Shown here one piece after another: positions 11,813 through 19,349 of a stretch of 35,843 nt of DNA; position 1 is the stretch's first letter, and each line of letters begins with the position of its first letter. The DNA comes from a virus: positions 1 to 35,843 of the IMG/VR virus record IMGVR_UViG_3300014060_000005; one strand, written 5' to 3'. Below the pieces are notes generated by a model. That model worked only from the letters and a program-made list of their open reading frames with translations. It was not told the DNA's origin and made no database searches. The translations under genes were made by a program, and so were the position numbers.

Positions 11813-12379
11813 ATGAAAAATAAAAGCGCAAATAAGGATTGGGTTGTATTAGCATTTTCTCTTGCTTGCTTTGTAGGTCTTTTTATTTATCAAAAATATT
11901 ATTTATTGGCATTATGTACCGTTATTGGTGGGATTGCAATCTTTTTAATCAATAAAAATAAATGGGTCTTTTCTGCAATTAATAAGAAAAAGAAAGAGTT
12001 ATTAGATCAAGATAAAAGCGGCGCTGGACTTTTACAAAAAAAAGTTTCGGCTAAGTGGGTGTGTGGAATCTTTTTATTCATTGTTGTTCTATCACTTTCT
12101 TTCGTACATATAATTACCGGAGGGTATGTTGGATTTGCGATTGTTCCTAAAAACACCATTGGTTTTAAGGATACATTCATTAATGTCGATGAAATAACAG
12201 GAATGCCATGGATTGCTGCAACTTCTAAATATCCTATTGCCGTCAAAATATTGCAACAAGAAGGAATTATTGAAAGCGACGAAGCCCGTGAAAGAAGACT
12301 CCATTCCGAAATGATGGAGTCTATGGAGCGATCTAAAAAAGAATTTGAAATGTTAATGAATGAAAATCGAAACAAATAA
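11813..12379 (+). CDS. Multi-pass membrane protein, lysogeny module
   Basis: The 188-residue protein has two closely spaced N-terminal membrane helices (about 10-46), a Lys-rich loop (NKKKKELLDQDK), a third membrane helix (about 85-105) and a charged helical C terminus (ERRLHSEMMESMERSKKEFE). AAGGAG precedes the ATG, 26 bp after the previous stop, and a terminator follows at once, so it closes the repressor transcript. It likely works with the preceding anchored protein. Family unknown. Confidence 0.7.
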   Translation: MKNKSANKDWVVLAFSLACFVGLFIYQKYYLLALCTVIGGIAIFLINKNKWVFSAINKKKKELLDQDKSGAGLLQKKVSAKWVCGIFLFIVVLSLSFVHIITGGYVGFAIVPKNTIGFKDTFINVDEITGMPWIAATSKYPIAVKILQQEGIIESDEARERRLHSEMMESMERSKKEFEMLMNENRNK

Positions 12380-12386
12380 AAAAAAT

Positions 12387-12409
12387 AGACGGCAGATGCC
12401 GCCTTTTTT
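12387..12409 (+). terminator. Terminator of the lysogeny operon
   Basis: GACGGC, loop AGAT, GCCGCC (one mismatch) is followed by six T residues. It lies eight bases after the stop of the second membrane protein and ahead of the methylase. Confidence 0.7.
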
Positions 12410-12434
12410 ATTTGGCGTTTGTAAATTTTGCGCC

Positions 12435-13235
12435 ATGCCAAATATTAAGCCAACTCTGAAGACTCCCATCACCTATTATGGTGGTAAACAAAAACTCTGC
12501 AAGACCATACTTGAAAAGATTCCAGCGCATCAATTGTATTGTGAGCCCTTTGTTGGCGGCGGTGCTATCTTCTTTGCGAAGCAGCCGAGCCCTGTTGAAG
12601 TGATTAATGATGTGAATGGGGAGCTGATCAATTTTTATAAAGTAGTCCAGAGGGATTTTGTAAGTCTTGAAAAGGAAATCAGAATCAGCCTGCATAGCCG
12701 TACTATGCACCGTCAGGCTTCCGTTGTCTACAATAATCCCGATATGTTCAATGATATCCGTCGCGCGTGGGCTGTGTGGGTGCTTGCACACATGAGCTTT
12801 TCTTCTATGCTGGACGGTTCTTTTGGGTATGATAAGAAGCGAGGTACCACTAGTAAAAAGATCGAGCACGCTCGCGATTCGTTTTCAGAAGAGCTTGCTA
12901 TTCGCTTGCAAGAGGTACAAATAGAATGCACTGATGCTATCCGTATTATTGAGAGTCGCGATACTCCTGATAGTTTCTTTTATTGTGATCCACCCTATTT
13001 TAATAGTGACTGTGGACATTATGATGGATACTCTGAAATGGATTTTGAAAACCTATTGAAGTCCCTTTCAAAGGTTCATGGAAAGTTTCTTTTGAGTAGT
13101 TATCCATCTCCGATTTTGACTGACTACACAAGGGCTCATGAATGGCACCAAGAGACTCACAATATGAACGTGACGGTTTCTTTGGTCTGTGGAAAGTCAA
13201 AGAAGAAGACGGAAGTGCTTACATGGAACTATTGA
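12435..13235 (+). CDS. dam: DNA adenine methyltransferase, Dam/D12 class
   Basis: The 266-residue protein belongs to the D12 class N6-adenine methyltransferases. The S-adenosylmethionine site is TYYGGK (13-18) plus the EPFVGGGA stretch (37-44); the catalytic motif is DPPY (185-188). The usual target of the class is GATC, but specificity is not readable here. No restriction enzyme gene is adjacent, so it is a solitary methylase, useful against host restriction or for timing gene expression. I start it at 12435 because the upstream frame runs through the terminator. No clear ribosome site is present. Confidence 0.9.
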   Translation: MPNIKPTLKTPITYYGGKQKLCKTILEKIPAHQLYCEPFVGGGAIFFAKQPSPVEVINDVNGELINFYKVVQRDFVSLEKEIRISLHSRTMHRQASVVYNNPDMFNDIRRAWAVWVLAHMSFSSMLDGSFGYDKKRGTTSKKIEHARDSFSEELAIRLQEVQIECTDAIRIIESRDTPDSFFYCDPPYFNSDCGHYDGYSEMDFENLLKSLSKVHGKFLLSSYPSPILTDYTRAHEWHQETHNMNVTVSLVCGKSKKKTEVLTWNY

Positions 13236-13253: not shown

Positions 13254-13282
13254 TTGTCGATTGCGCAAAAATGTTTTATTTT
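13254..13282 (+). promoter_or_regulatory. Possible promoter of the mor-like gene
   Basis: TTGTCG, a 17-bp spacer and TATTTT stand just before the activator gene. The predicted start of transcription would fall within a few bases of the ATG at 13290, so the mRNA would be leaderless, which fits the lack of a ribosome site. Match to consensus is moderate. Confidence 0.35.
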
Positions 13283-13289
13283 AGTGCAC

Positions 13290-13583
13290 ATGGCGACAGC
13301 TTGGGATACGATCACGATAGATGATTTACCGAATGAGGATCTGCAATGGATCGCTCGCAGTTTCGGTATTGATGTCGCCCGGGCTATATGGAAACGGTTT
13401 GCAGGGAATGGGGTACAATGCCCCTCGGGGCTGTCGCAACAGGCCGCTATGCGGTATATGCGTGATCATTTTGATAAGCCGGTTCATCAGTTGGCGGTGG
13501 GATTAGGGCGGAGCACAAGGACTATTTATAGGTATATGAACATTAAGCCATCGACGGATAAGCGGCAGGTGAGTTTGTTCTAG
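13290..13583 (+). CDS. mor: Mor-family transcription activator
   Basis: The 97-residue product fits the Mu Mor/C activator family: an N-terminal dimerisation part (ITIDDLPNEDLQWIARSFGI, then DVARAIWKRFAGNG) and a C-terminal helix-turn-helix (DKPVHQLAVGLGRSTRTIYR). Mor-type proteins bind upstream of weak middle or late promoters and recruit RNA polymerase. Only one such gene is seen, so it may do the work of both Mor and C. The ATG at 13290 is chosen; a TTG at 13254 is possible. Its stop overlaps that of the convergent G gene by four bases (CTAG). Confidence 0.85.
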   Translation: MATAWDTITIDDLPNEDLQWIARSFGIDVARAIWKRFAGNGVQCPSGLSQQAAMRYMRDHFDKPVHQLAVGLGRSTRTIYRYMNIKPSTDKRQVSLF

Positions 13584-14095
13584 TCTGATAATATGTGTTT
13601 TGTGACTACGGCTTTTGCTGTTTCGAGATCTTCGTCTTGCATCATGAGGTATGGTCTTGCGGGTATTTTTATTTTTTTTCCACGGCCTGCCATCCCGCCT
13701 AATTGATGAATTCGGGCATATGGGCGGTTATCTGGGCCGATGGATACTCCCTCACTATCCGCGTCATAATGGATACTATCCATTAACCCGCTACGCATAC
13801 CAAGGCCGATTAATATTTTCCTGCTCGCTATTTTTCGTTGTGCTCCCACGCGCAATTTACCGTTTGCTTTATAATCCTTCGTTCGAAGTGATCCATTTGT
13901 CGTTGCGTCCGATAACTTTTCCCATTTATCTGGTCTACCACTTTCTTCAAAATTCTGCCGAACGCTTTTAACGATAAGATCCCCCAGTGTTATCATTGCG
14001 GGGCGCATATTACTGATACGATCACGACGTTCTTTTAGCCAGGCATTGAAGCCTTTATCATCTATTTTACAACTTAGAGGGTATTTTGAAGGCAT
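13580..14095 (-). CDS. Virion morphogenesis / tail completion protein, Mu G-like
   Basis: The 171-residue protein matches the phage virion morphogenesis family (Mu gpG, gp31): an N-terminal helix region (GFNAWLKERRDRISNMRPAM), the sequence GRPDKWEKLS, and the hallmark YARIHQLGGMAGRG followed by IPARPYLMM. These proteins sit at the head-tail junction and complete the tail terminus. It is the last gene of the leftward late block and follows F, the Mu order. A weak ribosome site is seen; the promoter of the putative small RNA overlaps its upstream region on the other strand. Confidence 0.88.
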   Translation of the reverse strand: MPSKYPLSCKIDDKGFNAWLKERRDRISNMRPAMITLGDLIVKSVRQNFEESGRPDKWEKLSDATTNGSLRTKDYKANGKLRVGAQRKIASRKILIGLGMRSGLMDSIHYDADSEGVSIGPDNRPYARIHQLGGMAGRGKKIKIPARPYLMMQDEDLETAKAVVTKHILSD

Positions 14096-14096
14096 A

Positions 14097-14125
14097 TTGA
14101 CATCGTTGTTAAATTGATTTATATT
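14097..14125 (+). promoter_or_regulatory. Strong sigma70-type promoter facing right, between G and F
   Basis: TTGACA (14097-14102), a 17-bp spacer and TATATT (14120-14125) match the consensus at 11 of 12 positions. It points away from G and toward the 3' end of F, antisense to both, and no gene on the plus strand follows. About 50 bp on from the predicted start lies a terminator hairpin. Confidence 0.65.
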
Positions 14126-14131
14126 GATAGA

Positions 14132-14213
14132 GTCGGGTAGTTAGGCCTATCAAGCTGTTTGAACTATCAAGACTGTGGGATGCTTGTGATAGTGAGCATC
14201 CCACTACCTTTTT
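14132..14213 (+). ncRNA. Candidate small structured RNA between G and F
   Basis: A transcript from the promoter at 14097-14125 would begin near 14132 and end at the T run after the hairpin 14175-14204, giving about 80 nt. Within it GGTAGT (136-141 of the 14,000s) can pair with ACTACC (14203-14208), closing the molecule around the terminator stem. CTATCAAG occurs twice (14147-14154, 14164-14171) and can alternatively pair with CTTGTGATAG (14183-14192), so two folds compete. There is no open reading frame. It matches no RNA family I know. It could act on the F or G messages, which are transcribed from the other strand. Confidence 0.5.
14175..14213 (+). terminator. Perfect 10-bp hairpin with T run
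   Basis: GTGGGATGCT (14175-14184) and AGCATCCCAC (14195-14204) form a perfect stem with a 10-nt loop, followed on the plus strand by TACC and five T residues. The hairpin starts right at the stop codon of F on the minus strand, so it could also protect or end the F message. Confidence 0.65.
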
Positions 14214-15421
14214 AAATGTTTCTTTTGATATATCAACGTTCCCTCAACCTTTGGTTTAGATCGCATTGAATAGGATGTGTGGGCGGCGAATTGGCCTTTT
14301 TGTGCATCAAATACTACAGCTACATATTTTGATGTTTTTCCATCTGTAAAATTATTATAAAAGACACTGCGTATCGCCGTTTTTTTGCTTTCGCTTTCTA
14401 GAAATACCATTCGTATTTCCGCTGGATCTAAAATCGTTTTTGCAAACATAGATGAAAACTTTGATCGATCCATGTCTAGTTTTCCGTTTTTAAAAACCAA
14501 ATGATTTACCAAACTTTTAACATCAACTACCCCGTGATATGAAAATCCTTCATTCCCTTGAATATCAACAGGAATGATATTTCCACCTAGTTGATTCGAT
14601 AAAACCTTAACGAATTCAGCTTCGTTTGATAATCGTTTATCGTTAAAATATTTTTCATCTTTAATTGGTGGCAAATCTATAGATTCCCCAGTGGTTGACC
14701 AGAGTCCCTTTTGATCTGTTATCTCTGACCAAGAAAGTTTTCGCTCTTGCTGGGTTGCAAATTGTTGTACCCACGCATTTCCTTTTGTTGAGTCTCCAAT
14801 GTTATAGTCCCAGCCTTTATCTATACCTTTCGTGTCGCCACTCGGCGTTGGTGCTGATTTAGATACTGATAACCCTTTTGATTCGGCTTCTGCTATTGAT
14901 ACAGGTTCTTTCCAGCATCGACACCCCCAACCATTGGGAGGTGTGTGCGCATTCCACCAAGGATCATTCATGGGTAATATTGTATTGTTCCATTGATGGT
15001 GTTCTGGTCTGTCTCTACCATCGTTCATGCTTCTATAACGAGCATGTGTGAAAATACCAGCCATATCCTTGTCGTGCATTTGTTGTTCACGAGCTTCAGC
15101 ATATGCAGAATGCACATTGGTAGAGTAGATTAAATCAGATCTCCATTTACGTTCTCCGTTATATTGCCACCCGTGTTTTTCAACAATTCTATCAAAGTCC
15201 CTTCGAAATTGAACAATTGTTTTACCATCAGTCAAAGCTTTTTCAATGGATGTTTTGAAGTCGCAAAGCAAATCTTCCTTCATTGCACCGGCAACGGTAA
15301 ACGCTCTCGTATGCATGGTTCCTTTAAGGTCGTCCCATTTTTGAGTAGGTAAATTAACCTTATTACGGAAGAACTCTAGAGCTTCCTTGTTTTCCATTGA
15401 CTGTACTTTGATGTCTGCCAT
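14204..15421 (-). CDS. Head morphogenesis protein, Mu F-like, with C-terminal PBECR-type nuclease domain
   Basis: The 405-residue protein has a phage Mu F / SPP1 gp7-like minor head domain: helical N-terminal part, then ARYRSMNDGRDRPEHHQWN, and PPNGWGCRCWKEP with the paired Cys typical of the family (about 128-175). The C-terminal 150 residues form a second domain ending ILDPAEIRMVFLES, then a beta-rich stretch with AAHTSYSM and GTLIYQKK. That pattern matches the PBECR (phage Barnase-EndoU-ColicinE5-RelE-like) nuclease domains fused to phage head proteins. It may be a toxin delivered with the virion or used against rival infections. It follows the portal gene by one base, as in Mu. Confidence 0.82.
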   Translation of the reverse strand: MADIKVQSMENKEALEFFRNKVNLPTQKWDDLKGTMHTRAFTVAGAMKEDLLCDFKTSIEKALTDGKTIVQFRRDFDRIVEKHGWQYNGERKWRSDLIYSTNVHSAYAEAREQQMHDKDMAGIFTHARYRSMNDGRDRPEHHQWNNTILPMNDPWWNAHTPPNGWGCRCWKEPVSIAEAESKGLSVSKSAPTPSGDTKGIDKGWDYNIGDSTKGNAWVQQFATQQERKLSWSEITDQKGLWSTTGESIDLPPIKDEKYFNDKRLSNEAEFVKVLSNQLGGNIIPVDIQGNEGFSYHGVVDVKSLVNHLVFKNGKLDMDRSKFSSMFAKTILDPAEIRMVFLESESKKTAIRSVFYNNFTDGKTSKYVAVVFDAQKGQFAAHTSYSMRSKPKVEGTLIYQKKHLKR

Positions 15422-15422
15422 G

Positions 15423-16919
15423 CTATTTTACCAACCCCGCTTTTTTCAAAATATCATAGCGGCCTGCCAAGTCTGCGGTAGTGAAAGCTTCTTCCATCTC
15501 TTTTGCGATTGGCTCCGTTGGTATTTCAGCAAATAGAGATAACAGATTATCGCGGACTTCTTCGAGAGTATCTGCTTTGTCGATCATCTCTTTTAATGGC
15601 CCCAGCAAATTTATTTTTGCACATGAGTCTGAGCATTTCTCTGCGAACTGATCGGCAATAGCATTTGGACTTTCTTGCATTTCATCTTTATCAGTAGCCT
15701 CCGCAAACGAAGCTGGAGTTCCAGAGGTAGGCTCATCAACAATAATTTTTGCAATGTACTTCGCATCAATGCCGTAGGTGTCCACATAGTAGTTTGAATT
15801 GAACCGTACTCCCATGTTATACAACTTTACGTCGCGATCCACTCGCGCAGTCTGCATGTCTTCAGGCAGCTGTATATTCATCCACGGGATGTTCTTTTCG
15901 TCAGGCCAATTCAACTCCCAGATCCAGCGGATCAACGTATTCCAAGTCCCCTCGGTTCTCGTCGCGTCATCCATGGTCAGATCCTGACGGACTTCGTTGT
16001 GGACTGTGCCTAATGCCTGGCTTGCGCCTGACGTGGTCTGCTGAGTGCTTAGCGTTTCACCAAGCCACGCGATGGACATTTCCTCATCAGCCCATTTTAC
16101 AATTGCGGCGTGAGGTCCGTCGCCATTTCCACTTTGTTTTGTTTCGAGCAGTTCCACTGAGCCGGTATTTGGAATCACCGCTACCGCGTCGCGGATCAGA
16201 CCGTAGAGGTTACGGAGAAACTTATCCCGTTCGGTTTGCGAAGTTCCGCCAGGCACTTTGCCGATGGCTTTGGGAAATCCAAACTTTTCAAGCCACAGCA
16301 TCCAAAACTTAAGGCCGCCCTTCTTGAATGCAATAGGCCAGAAGCACCGCGATAGTGTGGCTTTGCCATACGGATTGGAAGACGTGGGTTCTTGTCTGGT
16401 GAGCAAAAACTTGCGTGGCAACAGTTCCAGTGGGCGGCCATCCTTTTGCCGCATGACGAGCTGGTTATCCCGATCACTAAACCGGAACCACTCTTGAGGC
16501 TTGTCTTTGATGGCCATTGGGAGAATGAGGCCGTTCTCTAATCCCCAACAGACTTCGTGTACCTGCATTCCATAACCTACGGCTCCGCCTACCATCTGGC
16601 CGGTGACATCGTGATAGCCGACTTTTTGGAATAGCCAATCTTCTATGAGCTTTGATTTTGCGGGATCACCTTTACCTTCAATCGACCACGGACGGGATGT
16701 GACGGCGGAAATGCGTTTGTGCATAACGCTATCCAGATGCCCATCGACAAAATCACGGTATACCTTGTAGTTTTGCCCTTGTGTCCGCAGCACTGGATCT
16801 GGGTTGGGGAGGTAATCCAAATAGGTGACGTATTGCGCGGCATCCCGAGTGGCTATTTCGTTCATCGAAACAGTGACTTCTTGGGTGGTATTTTGCGATT
16901 CTTTTGTTTTTTTGCTCAT
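15423..16919 (-). CDS. Portal protein, Mu gp29-like (DUF935)
   Basis: The 498-residue protein is a DUF935-type portal: YRDFVDGHLDSVMHKRISAV near the start, KFLLTRQEPTSSNPYGKATL in the middle, then the clip/stem region with IWELNWPDEKNIPWMNIQLP and the acidic C-terminal tail. It forms the dodecameric ring through which DNA enters and leaves the head. Gene order terminase, portal, F agrees with Mu. Length is normal (Mu gp29 is about 510). The ATG is preceded by GAGG. The gap to the terminase gene holds tandem repeats. Confidence 0.92.
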   Translation of the reverse strand: MSKKTKESQNTTQEVTVSMNEIATRDAAQYVTYLDYLPNPDPVLRTQGQNYKVYRDFVDGHLDSVMHKRISAVTSRPWSIEGKGDPAKSKLIEDWLFQKVGYHDVTGQMVGGAVGYGMQVHEVCWGLENGLILPMAIKDKPQEWFRFSDRDNQLVMRQKDGRPLELLPRKFLLTRQEPTSSNPYGKATLSRCFWPIAFKKGGLKFWMLWLEKFGFPKAIGKVPGGTSQTERDKFLRNLYGLIRDAVAVIPNTGSVELLETKQSGNGDGPHAAIVKWADEEMSIAWLGETLSTQQTTSGASQALGTVHNEVRQDLTMDDATRTEGTWNTLIRWIWELNWPDEKNIPWMNIQLPEDMQTARVDRDVKLYNMGVRFNSNYYVDTYGIDAKYIAKIIVDEPTSGTPASFAEATDKDEMQESPNAIADQFAEKCSDSCAKINLLGPLKEMIDKADTLEEVRDNLLSLFAEIPTEPIAKEMEEAFTTADLAGRYDILKKAGLVK

Positions 16920-17057
16920 GTGATCCTCGGTATACTACGTAAACCTTCAGAAACCCGTTTAAACCCGTTCAATTCCGATTCTTTTATGTTCGGCCAATAC
17001 TTGGAGGTGTTTTTAAAACAGGGCCTTAAAATGGTCTTAAAATCAAACTCTTGAGTT
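16916..17057. repeat. Short tandem repeats between terminase and portal genes
   Basis: AAACCCGTTT/AAACCCGTTC (16951-16970) is a 10-bp tandem pair, and CTTAAAAT occurs twice (17025-17032, 17036-17043). An unbroken minus-strand frame of 56 codons (17086 to 16916) spans the gap and ends overlapping the portal start, but has only a TTG start and no ribosome site, so I do not call it a gene. Confidence 0.5.
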
Positions 17058-18551
17058 TCATAAGTTGTTCCAATCGGGCGTTTCAAAAAACGATTCGTCT
17101 TTGTGCCTTAAAAAATCATCTTCTTTGTCCGCGTTCCCATTTCTGGAGTCTGCAAAAGGCAAACCACTTTCCGGATCGCGGGCGGCGTGTACTGCGAGAG
17201 CAAGCGCCCAAAAACAGTCACCATGGCCTTTATCCGTTTCTTCGGCATCGTAGCGGCTGTTGCCTGCGGAGGTTGTCATTTTGCGGACAGAATGCAGGGA
17301 CTCGCGCTGGATGCTTTCGAGGGTTACTGTTTTGACTTCTTCCTTGTCTTTCTTTTTGGCGTTGGTGAGGGCCACCTTAACGCCTGTGTCTGTAGGGATG
17401 ATGATGGTGTTATCCTGAAACTCACGCTCCAAGCGCATTGCAAGATCAGCTTTGAGACTGTTGGAGAATGTGATTCCTTCCACTCGCCAGGCACCGCCAT
17501 AGTTTTGTGCTCGCTCGGTGAATTGGTCTCCGAGGCCTGTGCGGTCGATACAGCACCGCACCACTTTGGAATTGTCCAGAATTTTATAGAGGATAGTCTC
17601 TTGCGATGTCCAATCCATGCGTGGCAGGGCTTTGAGTGCCCGCACTGTCAATATCGTGCCCACATCTTCGAGCACGTAAATGACGGTTAAATGCCTGCGT
17701 CTAGCTACGTCTACGCCTACAAAGAAAGGCCCCATGCAATCAGACAATTTTTTGAGAATTCCCGCTTTGCTTGCGTTGTCGATGGCGTTGTAGGCGAGTA
17801 CAGCATTTGCTTCTTCCTGCGCCTGGCACATGTATTCCTGTAGCCAAATATCTTCTGAGAGGCATTTACTATGCTCTTCTTCTATCCACTCCTCACGCTC
17901 TTTCTGCGTGAGCTTTTTCCCCATGATCTTATCGGCTAGGCCTTGACTTACAGCAAGTACAATGGTGACTGTATGCAGCGAGAAATTTAATTCGCCCTTC
18001 AATACCTTTTCAATGAGCCTGTAAAACACACATTTTTTACCGTTGTGTGTGCTCAGTATGCGGATATCATAGCCCCACATCGCGGAAGGCATTGCTGCGG
18101 CCCACATCTTTTCGTCCTGTTCGTGATGGCCCGCTTCATCCCATACGATTTTTCCGCCTTTACTGCGGAAGGCTTTTGGGTTACTGGATAGCGCGATGAT
18201 TTTAGAGCCGTTCAAAAATTCAATGATCTGACATTTTACGCCTTTGTCTTCATCGGCAAATTCAATGTCAACGATATCTCCCTGGTCGATATCCGGGAGT
18301 AGTTTTGCGAGACCATTGAGTTTGTTCACCCAATCGGCGCAGTAGTCGATGTATTCACTAGCGGCGGTAAGATCGGCGGACGAAAAGTAAACTTTTAACC
18401 CTGCTTTTTCGATACAATCAGATACGTCCTCGAATGACTGCGTCCAAGTACCACCCACGCGGCGGGACTTTTCGAGCATCTTTACCCTGGAATGATCAGA
18501 TAGGTAATCTATCTGCCAGGGGAAAAACATGTCAATCAAAGATTCACTCAT
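17058..18551 (-). CDS. Large terminase, Mu gp28-like
   Basis: The 497-residue protein is the packaging motor ATPase and nuclease. The Walker A-like motif is EKSRRVGGTW (27-36), the Walker B motif is IVWDEAGHH with D138 and E139, and the nuclease part opens with FVGVDVARRRHL (D281), then CIDRTGLGD (D336) and, near the C terminus, YDAEETDKGHGDCFWALALA. The layout matches Mu gp28 / the DNA-packaging terminases. It should pack phage DNA together with flanking host DNA, headful style. It overlaps the small-terminase stop by four bases. All catalytic motifs are intact. Confidence 0.92.
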   Translation of the reverse strand: MSESLIDMFFPWQIDYLSDHSRVKMLEKSRRVGGTWTQSFEDVSDCIEKAGLKVYFSSADLTAASEYIDYCADWVNKLNGLAKLLPDIDQGDIVDIEFADEDKGVKCQIIEFLNGSKIIALSSNPKAFRSKGGKIVWDEAGHHEQDEKMWAAAMPSAMWGYDIRILSTHNGKKCVFYRLIEKVLKGELNFSLHTVTIVLAVSQGLADKIMGKKLTQKEREEWIEEEHSKCLSEDIWLQEYMCQAQEEANAVLAYNAIDNASKAGILKKLSDCMGPFFVGVDVARRRHLTVIYVLEDVGTILTVRALKALPRMDWTSQETILYKILDNSKVVRCCIDRTGLGDQFTERAQNYGGAWRVEGITFSNSLKADLAMRLEREFQDNTIIIPTDTGVKVALTNAKKKDKEEVKTVTLESIQRESLHSVRKMTTSAGNSRYDAEETDKGHGDCFWALALAVHAARDPESGLPFADSRNGNADKEDDFLRHKDESFFETPDWNNL

Positions 18552-18964
18552 CCCCGTACTCCGAAGAGCTGCTTTGCGCGTTTCATGGCGGCGGCTTGTT
18601 TTTCCTGTTTGGACTTTCCGTTATCTGGTGGTTTGCCGCTTCCGTCGGCTTCGTAGTCTTTGGCTTTGTTGGCGGTGTCGATTACGCGGCGCAGTGCTGA
18701 ATAACGCTCTGGCGATACTTTTATCCCTGCTTCTTCGTCGATGCGTATCTGACGAGCCATGGTTTCGCCGAGTTTAAAAATCTCCCCATGAAATGCACCT
18801 TCGGATCCACTGATTCGAGTGCGTTCTTCCTCCCACATATCCTCACTCTTCCAGTTTTGCAGGGTGCGGGTACTAACGTCTAAAGCCCTGCCGATATCAG
18901 CAAGGCTCATGTGGTGAATGCAATACATTTCCTTTGCACGCGGTTTTGAATCTTGCTTACTCAT
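18548..18964 (-). CDS. Small terminase subunit, Mu gp27-like
   Basis: The 138-residue protein has an N-terminal helix-turn-helix (CIHHMSLADIGRALDVSTRT, LQNWKSEDMW) and a long helical centre, the layout of Mu gp27/DUF1804 packaging-recognition proteins. I start it at 18964, where AGGAGG lies eight bases upstream, instead of six codons earlier. It would recognise the left phage end and load the motor. The basic C terminus may bind the large subunit, whose gene overlaps it by four bases. Confidence 0.85.
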   Translation of the reverse strand: MSKQDSKPRAKEMYCIHHMSLADIGRALDVSTRTLQNWKSEDMWEEERTRISGSEGAFHGEIFKLGETMARQIRIDEEAGIKVSPERYSALRRVIDTANKAKDYEADGSGKPPDNGKSKQEKQAAAMKRAKQLFGVRG

Positions 18965-19349
18965 TTTGTGAGCCTCCTGCATTTCGACTACGGCTGTTGT
19001 AACAGCACTCTCGAATAGTCTCTAGGCTGCGTTGCCCATCAGTCACATATTGTTGAAAAAGTTGCTCCCACTTTTTTTGCTCTGACAACTTGCTTTCATC
19101 TTCCTTTTTTTGATCCGACTCCAGCATTACTTCCCACTTGTGCTGCTCAGTCAAATAAAAGCCAACAAGCATCACGGCAAAGACAATGCCTATGCCATAG
19201 CGCTTGAATGCAGCAAGCCAAAAGCTCTCGCCGACAGGCATCGTTGATGGCGTAGGATTTTGATATCCTGTATAGCCGGGCTGATAGCCAGAATAATTTT
19301 CGTTAGGGTTGGGTTGTGTGGAATCTGGGGATGGGTATTGTGGATCCAT
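18957..19349 (-). CDS. Membrane protein with Pro/Tyr-rich N terminus and coiled coil
   Basis: The 130-residue protein opens with a Pro-, Asn- and Tyr-rich tail (YSGYQPGYTGYQNP), has one membrane segment (about 51-68, YGIGIVFAVMLVGFYL), then a charged coiled-coil-like helix (EQHKWEVMLESDQKKEDES) and a C-terminal Cys pair. In Mu, lysis genes precede the terminase genes, so a holin or Rz-like role is possible. The ribosome site GGAGG is strong and it leads the divergent late block. No family match. Confidence 0.6.
   Translation of the reverse strand: MDPQYPSPDSTQPNPNENYSGYQPGYTGYQNPTPSTMPVGESFWLAAFKRYGIGIVFAVMLVGFYLTEQHKWEVMLESDQKKEDESKLSEQKKWEQLFQQYVTDGQRSLETIRECCYNSRSRNAGGSQNE

Follow-up and report, generated by a model that had tools for sequence, protein, structure and literature searches.

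A candidate RNA antidote gene antisense to the F-G head gene junction of Mu-like phages

The gap between the head genes F and G of a Mu-like virus record (IMGVR_UViG_3300014060_000005; 35,843 nucleotides, analysed whole and referred to here as the window) holds a promoter, a predicted small structured RNA and an intrinsic terminator on the strand opposite to both genes. We propose, with moderate confidence, that this unit encodes an RNA antidote to a predicted nuclease domain at the end of the head protein F. From the consensus sigma70 promoter the RNA would be made independently of phage activators, both in the lysogen and early in infection, and the transcript, consisting of two hairpins joined by a 6-bp loop-loop contact and terminated just before F, would bind and block the PBECR2 domain of F. 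This domain probably travels in the virion and enters the cell by injection; a lysogen or newly infected cell would survive, and cells without the RNA, or competing elements, would be attacked. The RNase activity, the injection, the binding of RNA to protein and the resulting protection are steps that we infer. If correct, an RNA antidote of this kind, linked to the nuclease, would account for how a phage is able to carry such an enzyme, would offer a direct test of what the nuclease cuts and would add a family of RNA ribonuclease inhibitors, found in transposable phages of several phyla.

A promoter-to-terminator unit opposite F and G

Terminase, portal (PF06074), F (MuF, PF04233) and G (PF05069) all lie on the minus strand of this 35.8-kb window, and the 108-bp F-G gap carries the promoter and terminator on its plus strand (Table 1). 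The preliminary description had reported an 11-of-12 sigma70 promoter, a perfect 10-bp hairpin with a T run and the location of both in this gap, opposite in strand to its two flanking genes; all these features were recovered, and the promoter-to-terminator unit for a structured antisense RNA that had been read from them is supported by the sequence comparisons presented below. The promoter is the sole 11/12 match on the plus strand of the window, one further match at this level being present on the minus strand (position 1787), and the terminator hairpin begins about 43 nt past the predicted transcription start. Expression without an activator, also suggested earlier, seems likely, since no phage activator should be needed at such a promoter.

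Table 1. Features of the F-G gap and its flanking genes in the window
Feature	Position	Strand	Remarks
G, virion morphogenesis / neck protein (PF05069)	13580..14095	-	promoter abuts G start
Sigma70-type promoter TTGACA-17-TATATT	14097..14125	+	11/12 match; predicted +1 about 14132; near-consensus promoters with 17-nt spacing at the equivalent site, antisense, in phages related to this one
Predicted small RNA gene, about 82 nt	14132..14213	+	ends inferred
Hairpin A	14132..14173	+	GTC/GAC plus GGTAGTT (14136-14142) / AACTATC (14162-14168), CTATCA in apical loop; from the MFE structure
Loop-A word CTATCA	14147..14152	+	complement of TGATAG in loop B
Hairpin B, intrinsic terminator stem GTGGGATGCT/AGCATCCCAC	14175..14204	+	arms 14175-14184 / 14195-14204, 10 perfect pairs
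Intrinsic terminator overall	14175-14213	+	
Loop-B word TGATAG	14187..14192	+	predicted kissing partner of 14147-14152
Terminator T-run, T5	14209..14213	+	inside last F codons of the other strand
F, MuF head protein with C-terminal PBECR2 nuclease-like domain	14204..15421	-	conserved helix Arg and strand Thr

A coding reading of the unit was rejected: its only ATG frame, from about 14180 to the T-run, comprises about 11 codons and lies within the terminator. As regards the surroundings, a D12 adenine methylase gene (12360-13235, plus strand) stands upstream of a Mor/C-like activator gene (13254-13583, plus strand), which ends against the convergent end of G. Terminase, portal, F and G (13580-19349) are on the minus strand, and the strand changes to plus for the genes from 19444 onward; compared with Mu, in which the equivalent genes share one strand, the head block appears to be inverted.

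Searches for the RNA on DNA and exact-pattern level returned no match outside the window, and single-sequence searches with portal and F retrieved distant loci only, or none. No Rfam family was obtained at gathering and E-value thresholds, matches to BTnc231 and Sib falling far below the cut-off, in agreement with the initial impression that the RNA resembles no known family. ARAGORN called no tRNA genes, and we did not find the element described in the openly licensed full texts searched.

Fold of the RNA and covariation of its loops

The 82-nt RNA has a minimum free energy (MFE) of -28.9 kcal/mol, a stability equalled by 2 of 200 dinucleotide shuffles (z = -3.4) and due chiefly to the terminator hairpin; hairpin A alone is weak (z -1.1) and not unusually stable. 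The apical loops in the MFE structure are CUAUCAAGCU (hairpin A) and GUGAUAGU (hairpin B), and their complementary words face each other as loops. The stretch CTATCAAG is found twice (14147-14154 and 14164-14171), with its complement CTTGTGATAG at 14183-14192, and with it the CTATCA word is duplicated, so the second copy (14164-14171) could pair with loop B instead. Both words of the closing pairing proposed in the preliminary description, GGTAGT (14136-14141) and ACTACC (14203-14208), are present, as are those of its second pairing; the latter, taken there as competing, fits better with a conserved contact between the two loops. In the window by itself, complementary loops of this kind are only slightly out of the ordinary (P about 0.03); the weight of the observation comes from the comparison with other phages.

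Compared across phages, the RNAs have in common a pair of hairpins whose loops are complementary and vary in concert. Besides CTATCA/TGATAG in the window, such pairs include ACCGTGA/TCACGGT (L022), ATACATC/GATGTAT (L036), TCATGTC/GACATGA (L025), CCGCAG/CTGCGG (L103 and L108), CCGCAC/GTGCGG (L027), TTCCGG/CCGGAA (L014), CTGTCA/TGACAG (L142), CTGCCA/TGGCAG (L093) and CCGCCA/TGGCGG (L053), with further loci behaving likewise. Since these pairs were first noticed by eye, two statistical tests were run. The first, a scored loop-loop search, had 23 of 47 gap loci beating all 30 dinucleotide shuffles (1.5 expected) and 0 of 13 loci without a gap. The second was a swap test, in which hairpin B was picked by its stem alone, blind to the loop, and the loop was then scored against its own upstream RNA and against the RNAs of other phages: own partners reached 14.63 versus 10.91 for swapped ones, none of 5000 permutations being as high, and control regions gave 9.80 versus 9.53 (929 of 5000 permutations). 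The same script applied to new loci yielded 13.63 versus 10.71 (0 of 5000), and the window RNA scored 16.0 with its own partner versus 9.1 with RNAs of other phages. The swap tests thus argue for a predicted tertiary pairing of the pseudoknot type, indicated by covarying loops. Aligning the RNA cores by sequence with MAFFT gave a structurally wrong result, unfit for a covariance model, and a descriptor scan for a lower stem, apical hairpin and 3' bulge was suggestive only (p 0.06-0.10), the window not being picked out.

Recurrence of the unit in other phages

About 180 loci with an F homologue were assembled, drawn from viral contigs, genome contigs and the records of phages and plasmids; 80 more were added later as new data. 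Their comparison shows conservation of the promoter, the terminator, the loop pairing and the strand, as well as a tie to an intact predicted active site. The gap before G (at least 40 nt) served as a proxy for the RNA gene, and with near-copies removed it was counted at 49 of 69 loci with a PBECR2-type F, 22 of 25 with another long F and 9 of 29 with a short F. F overlaps G by 4 nt in Mu, leaving no gap, and none is present in the Mu-like short-F phages PhiKM and YPCBV-1.

Antisense promoters matching at least 10/12 positions occur at 14 of 39 PBECR2-gap loci, versus 2 in the sense direction and 0.2 by shuffling, and at none of 15 loci without a gap; their spacer is nearly always 17 nt, and the -10 box lies about 60-96 nt from the F stop. 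The new loci behaved similarly (10 of 23 versus 1 sense). Antisense terminators were recognised at 13 of 52 gap loci (versus 1 sense, about 0.2 by shuffling), often over the F stop, and the T-run of several of them (e.g. L014, L142, L147 and L164) coincides with the A-rich last codons or the stop of F. Many gap loci have no promoter or terminator recognisable by the sigma70 and T-run rules. Judging from these predictions, PBECR2-gap loci usually carry an antisense sigma70 promoter and an RNA of about 80 nt, often with a terminator, and the unit seems to be mostly absent from short-F phages. Absence of the stems from the same gap in homologous phages, put forward at the outset as an observation that would speak against the unit, was looked for; the unit recurs. 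DNA searches found no close DNA relatives of the window, so what is conserved is the architecture, not the exact sequence. The nearest F (L185, 44% identity) is accompanied by the same RNA design, AATGCC against GGCATT, and the sigma70 scan detected no promoter in its gap.

The stems and the loop complementarity are nearly strand-symmetric, as would also be expected if the F-G late mRNA, on the sense strand, formed a structural element acting on its stability, processing or coupling and the antisense promoter and terminator were incidental. However, promoters and terminators are strongly biased to the antisense strand, and G.U pairs outnumber A.C mismatches on that strand (115:71, p 0.0015), which makes such an element very unlikely.

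A further alternative is a cis-antisense (type I-like) regulator, which would pair with the F-G late mRNA and repress or destabilise F, so that the nuclease is not synthesised in the lysogen. By position the RNA is a perfect complement of the F-G intergenic mRNA, and a tie to an active nuclease would fit this function too, but it overlaps F by a few bases only, the terminators stop at the F stop codon, and antisense action does not require the conserved pairing between its own loops and would be hindered by it. Moreover, a nuclease injected as protein could not be neutralised in this way. We therefore regard cis-antisense regulation as unlikely. The action on F/G messages or on host RNA that the preliminary description had envisaged finds no support as the main role, given the small overlap with F and the co-occurrence of the RNA with an F whose nuclease domain is intact.

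The nuclease-like domain of F

The C-terminal 161 aa of F match the PF18810 (PBECR2) profile with 28.5 bits (cut-off 27.1), the whole protein staying just under the cut-off with 26.2, and a match was obtained in 21 of 22 aligned members. A good model of these last 161 aa (pLDDT 86) places R75 at the start of a helix (73-87) and T138 in a strand (133-142); its structural matches are weak, a CDI toxin being the best (Z 3.9), followed by EndoU enzymes (Z 2.9-3.3), and Foldseek E-values are also weak. BECR nucleases are described (PMC5512222) as having His (Arg in one family) in the first helix and Ser/Thr in strand 4, and our PBECR2 alignment displays Arg/His at the helix and Thr in the strand.

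Both predicted active-site residues (Arg and Thr) are intact at 38 of 47 gap loci versus 0 of 20 without a gap (Fisher 1.7e-10). The columns were picked after viewing the first alignment, and the new loci therefore provide the fairer test: counting Arg or His, both residues are present at 22 of 28 loci with a gap versus 0 of 4 without. The strand Thr is replaced by D, S, N, I or F in some gap loci. In one Pseudomonas-type clade, both the gap and the intact motif occur in L142 and L042, and their close relatives have neither. All these counts are inflated by related rows, and the supported branches of the tree provide only 5 independent gap/no-gap contrasts (about 3.4 in agreement, 0 opposed), a number insufficient for a sign test. 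The lack of a gap in Mu matches the published reading of the Mu PBECR domain as inactive (PMC5512222). Altogether, the RNA appears to be present where the nuclease looks active and absent where it looks dead, and this joint presence or absence points to the F protein as the partner.

A phage moron sRNA of the ordinary kind, directed at host mRNAs and without any connection to F, would likewise have an autonomous promoter and terminator, but it should not be missing from loci with a broken PBECR2 active site, nor mostly absent in short-F phages, and we consider it most improbable. The co-occurrence with an intact active site would fit equally well an RNA that is a cofactor, substrate or guide for nuclease activity, folding or packaging instead of an inhibitor, as an activating or guiding RNA would generate the same correlation. 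Nonetheless, a constitutive promoter opposite a late operon suits a need for the RNA before F is made, and the known RNA partners of type III toxin ribonucleases are inhibitors (PMC5086642); a cofactor or guide is thus quite unlikely. An antidote that binds the nuclease would account with the least strain for the active-site tie, the promoter type, the direction of transcription towards F with a stop at its end, and the tertiary fold.

Relation to known systems

Like type III toxin-antitoxin systems (ToxIN, CptIN and TenpIN), the unit combines an RNA with tertiary base pairing, a neighbouring predicted RNase gene and an intrinsic terminator. Type III antitoxins, however, consist of tandem repeats placed upstream of, and co-transcribed with, a toxin of the ToxN fold (PMC5086642), whereas here a single-copy two-hairpin RNA lies downstream of F on the opposite strand and the PBECR2 domain (PF18810), outside the ToxN family, is fused to a capsid protein. 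In its proposed action the RNA may resemble a type III antitoxin, yet toxin family, gene order and repeat structure set it apart from that class. With type I antisense antitoxins it has in common transcription opposite a toxin-containing operon, but hardly any overlap with the candidate toxin gene exists and the self-complementary loops are conserved.

F itself combines PF04233 with PBECR2, and repressor-like HTH and Mor-like genes mark the window as temperate, as expected for MuF polymorphic toxins. These share with our locus a C-terminal toxin-like domain and a candidate protecting element just downstream (PMC5576092). At other MuF toxin loci a small ORF for immunity usually comes after the toxin gene (PMC5576092); directly after F no such ORF is present, the 108-bp gap before G being too short for it, and the downstream element is instead a predicted opposite-strand RNA gene of about 80 nt. 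Through its PF18810 match the C-terminal nuclease-like domain of F is akin to the PBECR domains of MuF and polyvalent proteins, for which the consulted passages of PMC5512222 describe no RNA partner, unlike the situation found here.

It is tempting to speculate, at about even confidence, on a widespread and so far undescribed class of antisense F-G kissing-loop RNAs that would neutralise virion-delivered MuF-PBECR ribonucleases, immunity being conferred by RNA and not by protein, with tRNA-like RNAs beside other F C-termini as a possible second class.

RNAs beside other F C-termini

C-terminal extensions of MuF proteins without a known domain have been noted in phages of Proteobacteria (PMC5576092). 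The F of Pasteurella phage AFS-2018a (L006) has an extension without a Pfam match, and the antisense RNA of its F-G gap (L006:8674-8752) folds into a tRNA-like cloverleaf with an 8-bp closing stem, three arms and a T-loop-like CCTGTTCGAATCAGG, preceded by the promoter TTGATT-17-TATAGT; neither ARAGORN nor Rfam called it. In Haemophilus phage SuMu (L182:1870-1972, antisense) and Mannheimia phage 3927AP2 (L183:2128-2243, antisense) a PBECR3-type F is followed by an antisense TTGATT-17-TATATT promoter and a closed multi-branched RNA, that of SuMu including a T-arm-like GGTGGTTCGAGCCC. Three further loci (L088, L091 and L099) have in common a similar RNA-like sequence, GTGGACTGGAAATGC..., antisense after a long F without a known C-terminal domain (two scanned), and in L088 and L099 this region contains a terminator-like hairpin. 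Finally, Pseudomonas phage Komp_PAO1_1 carries a 2.1-kb opposite-strand gene just after G (L008:5112-7241).
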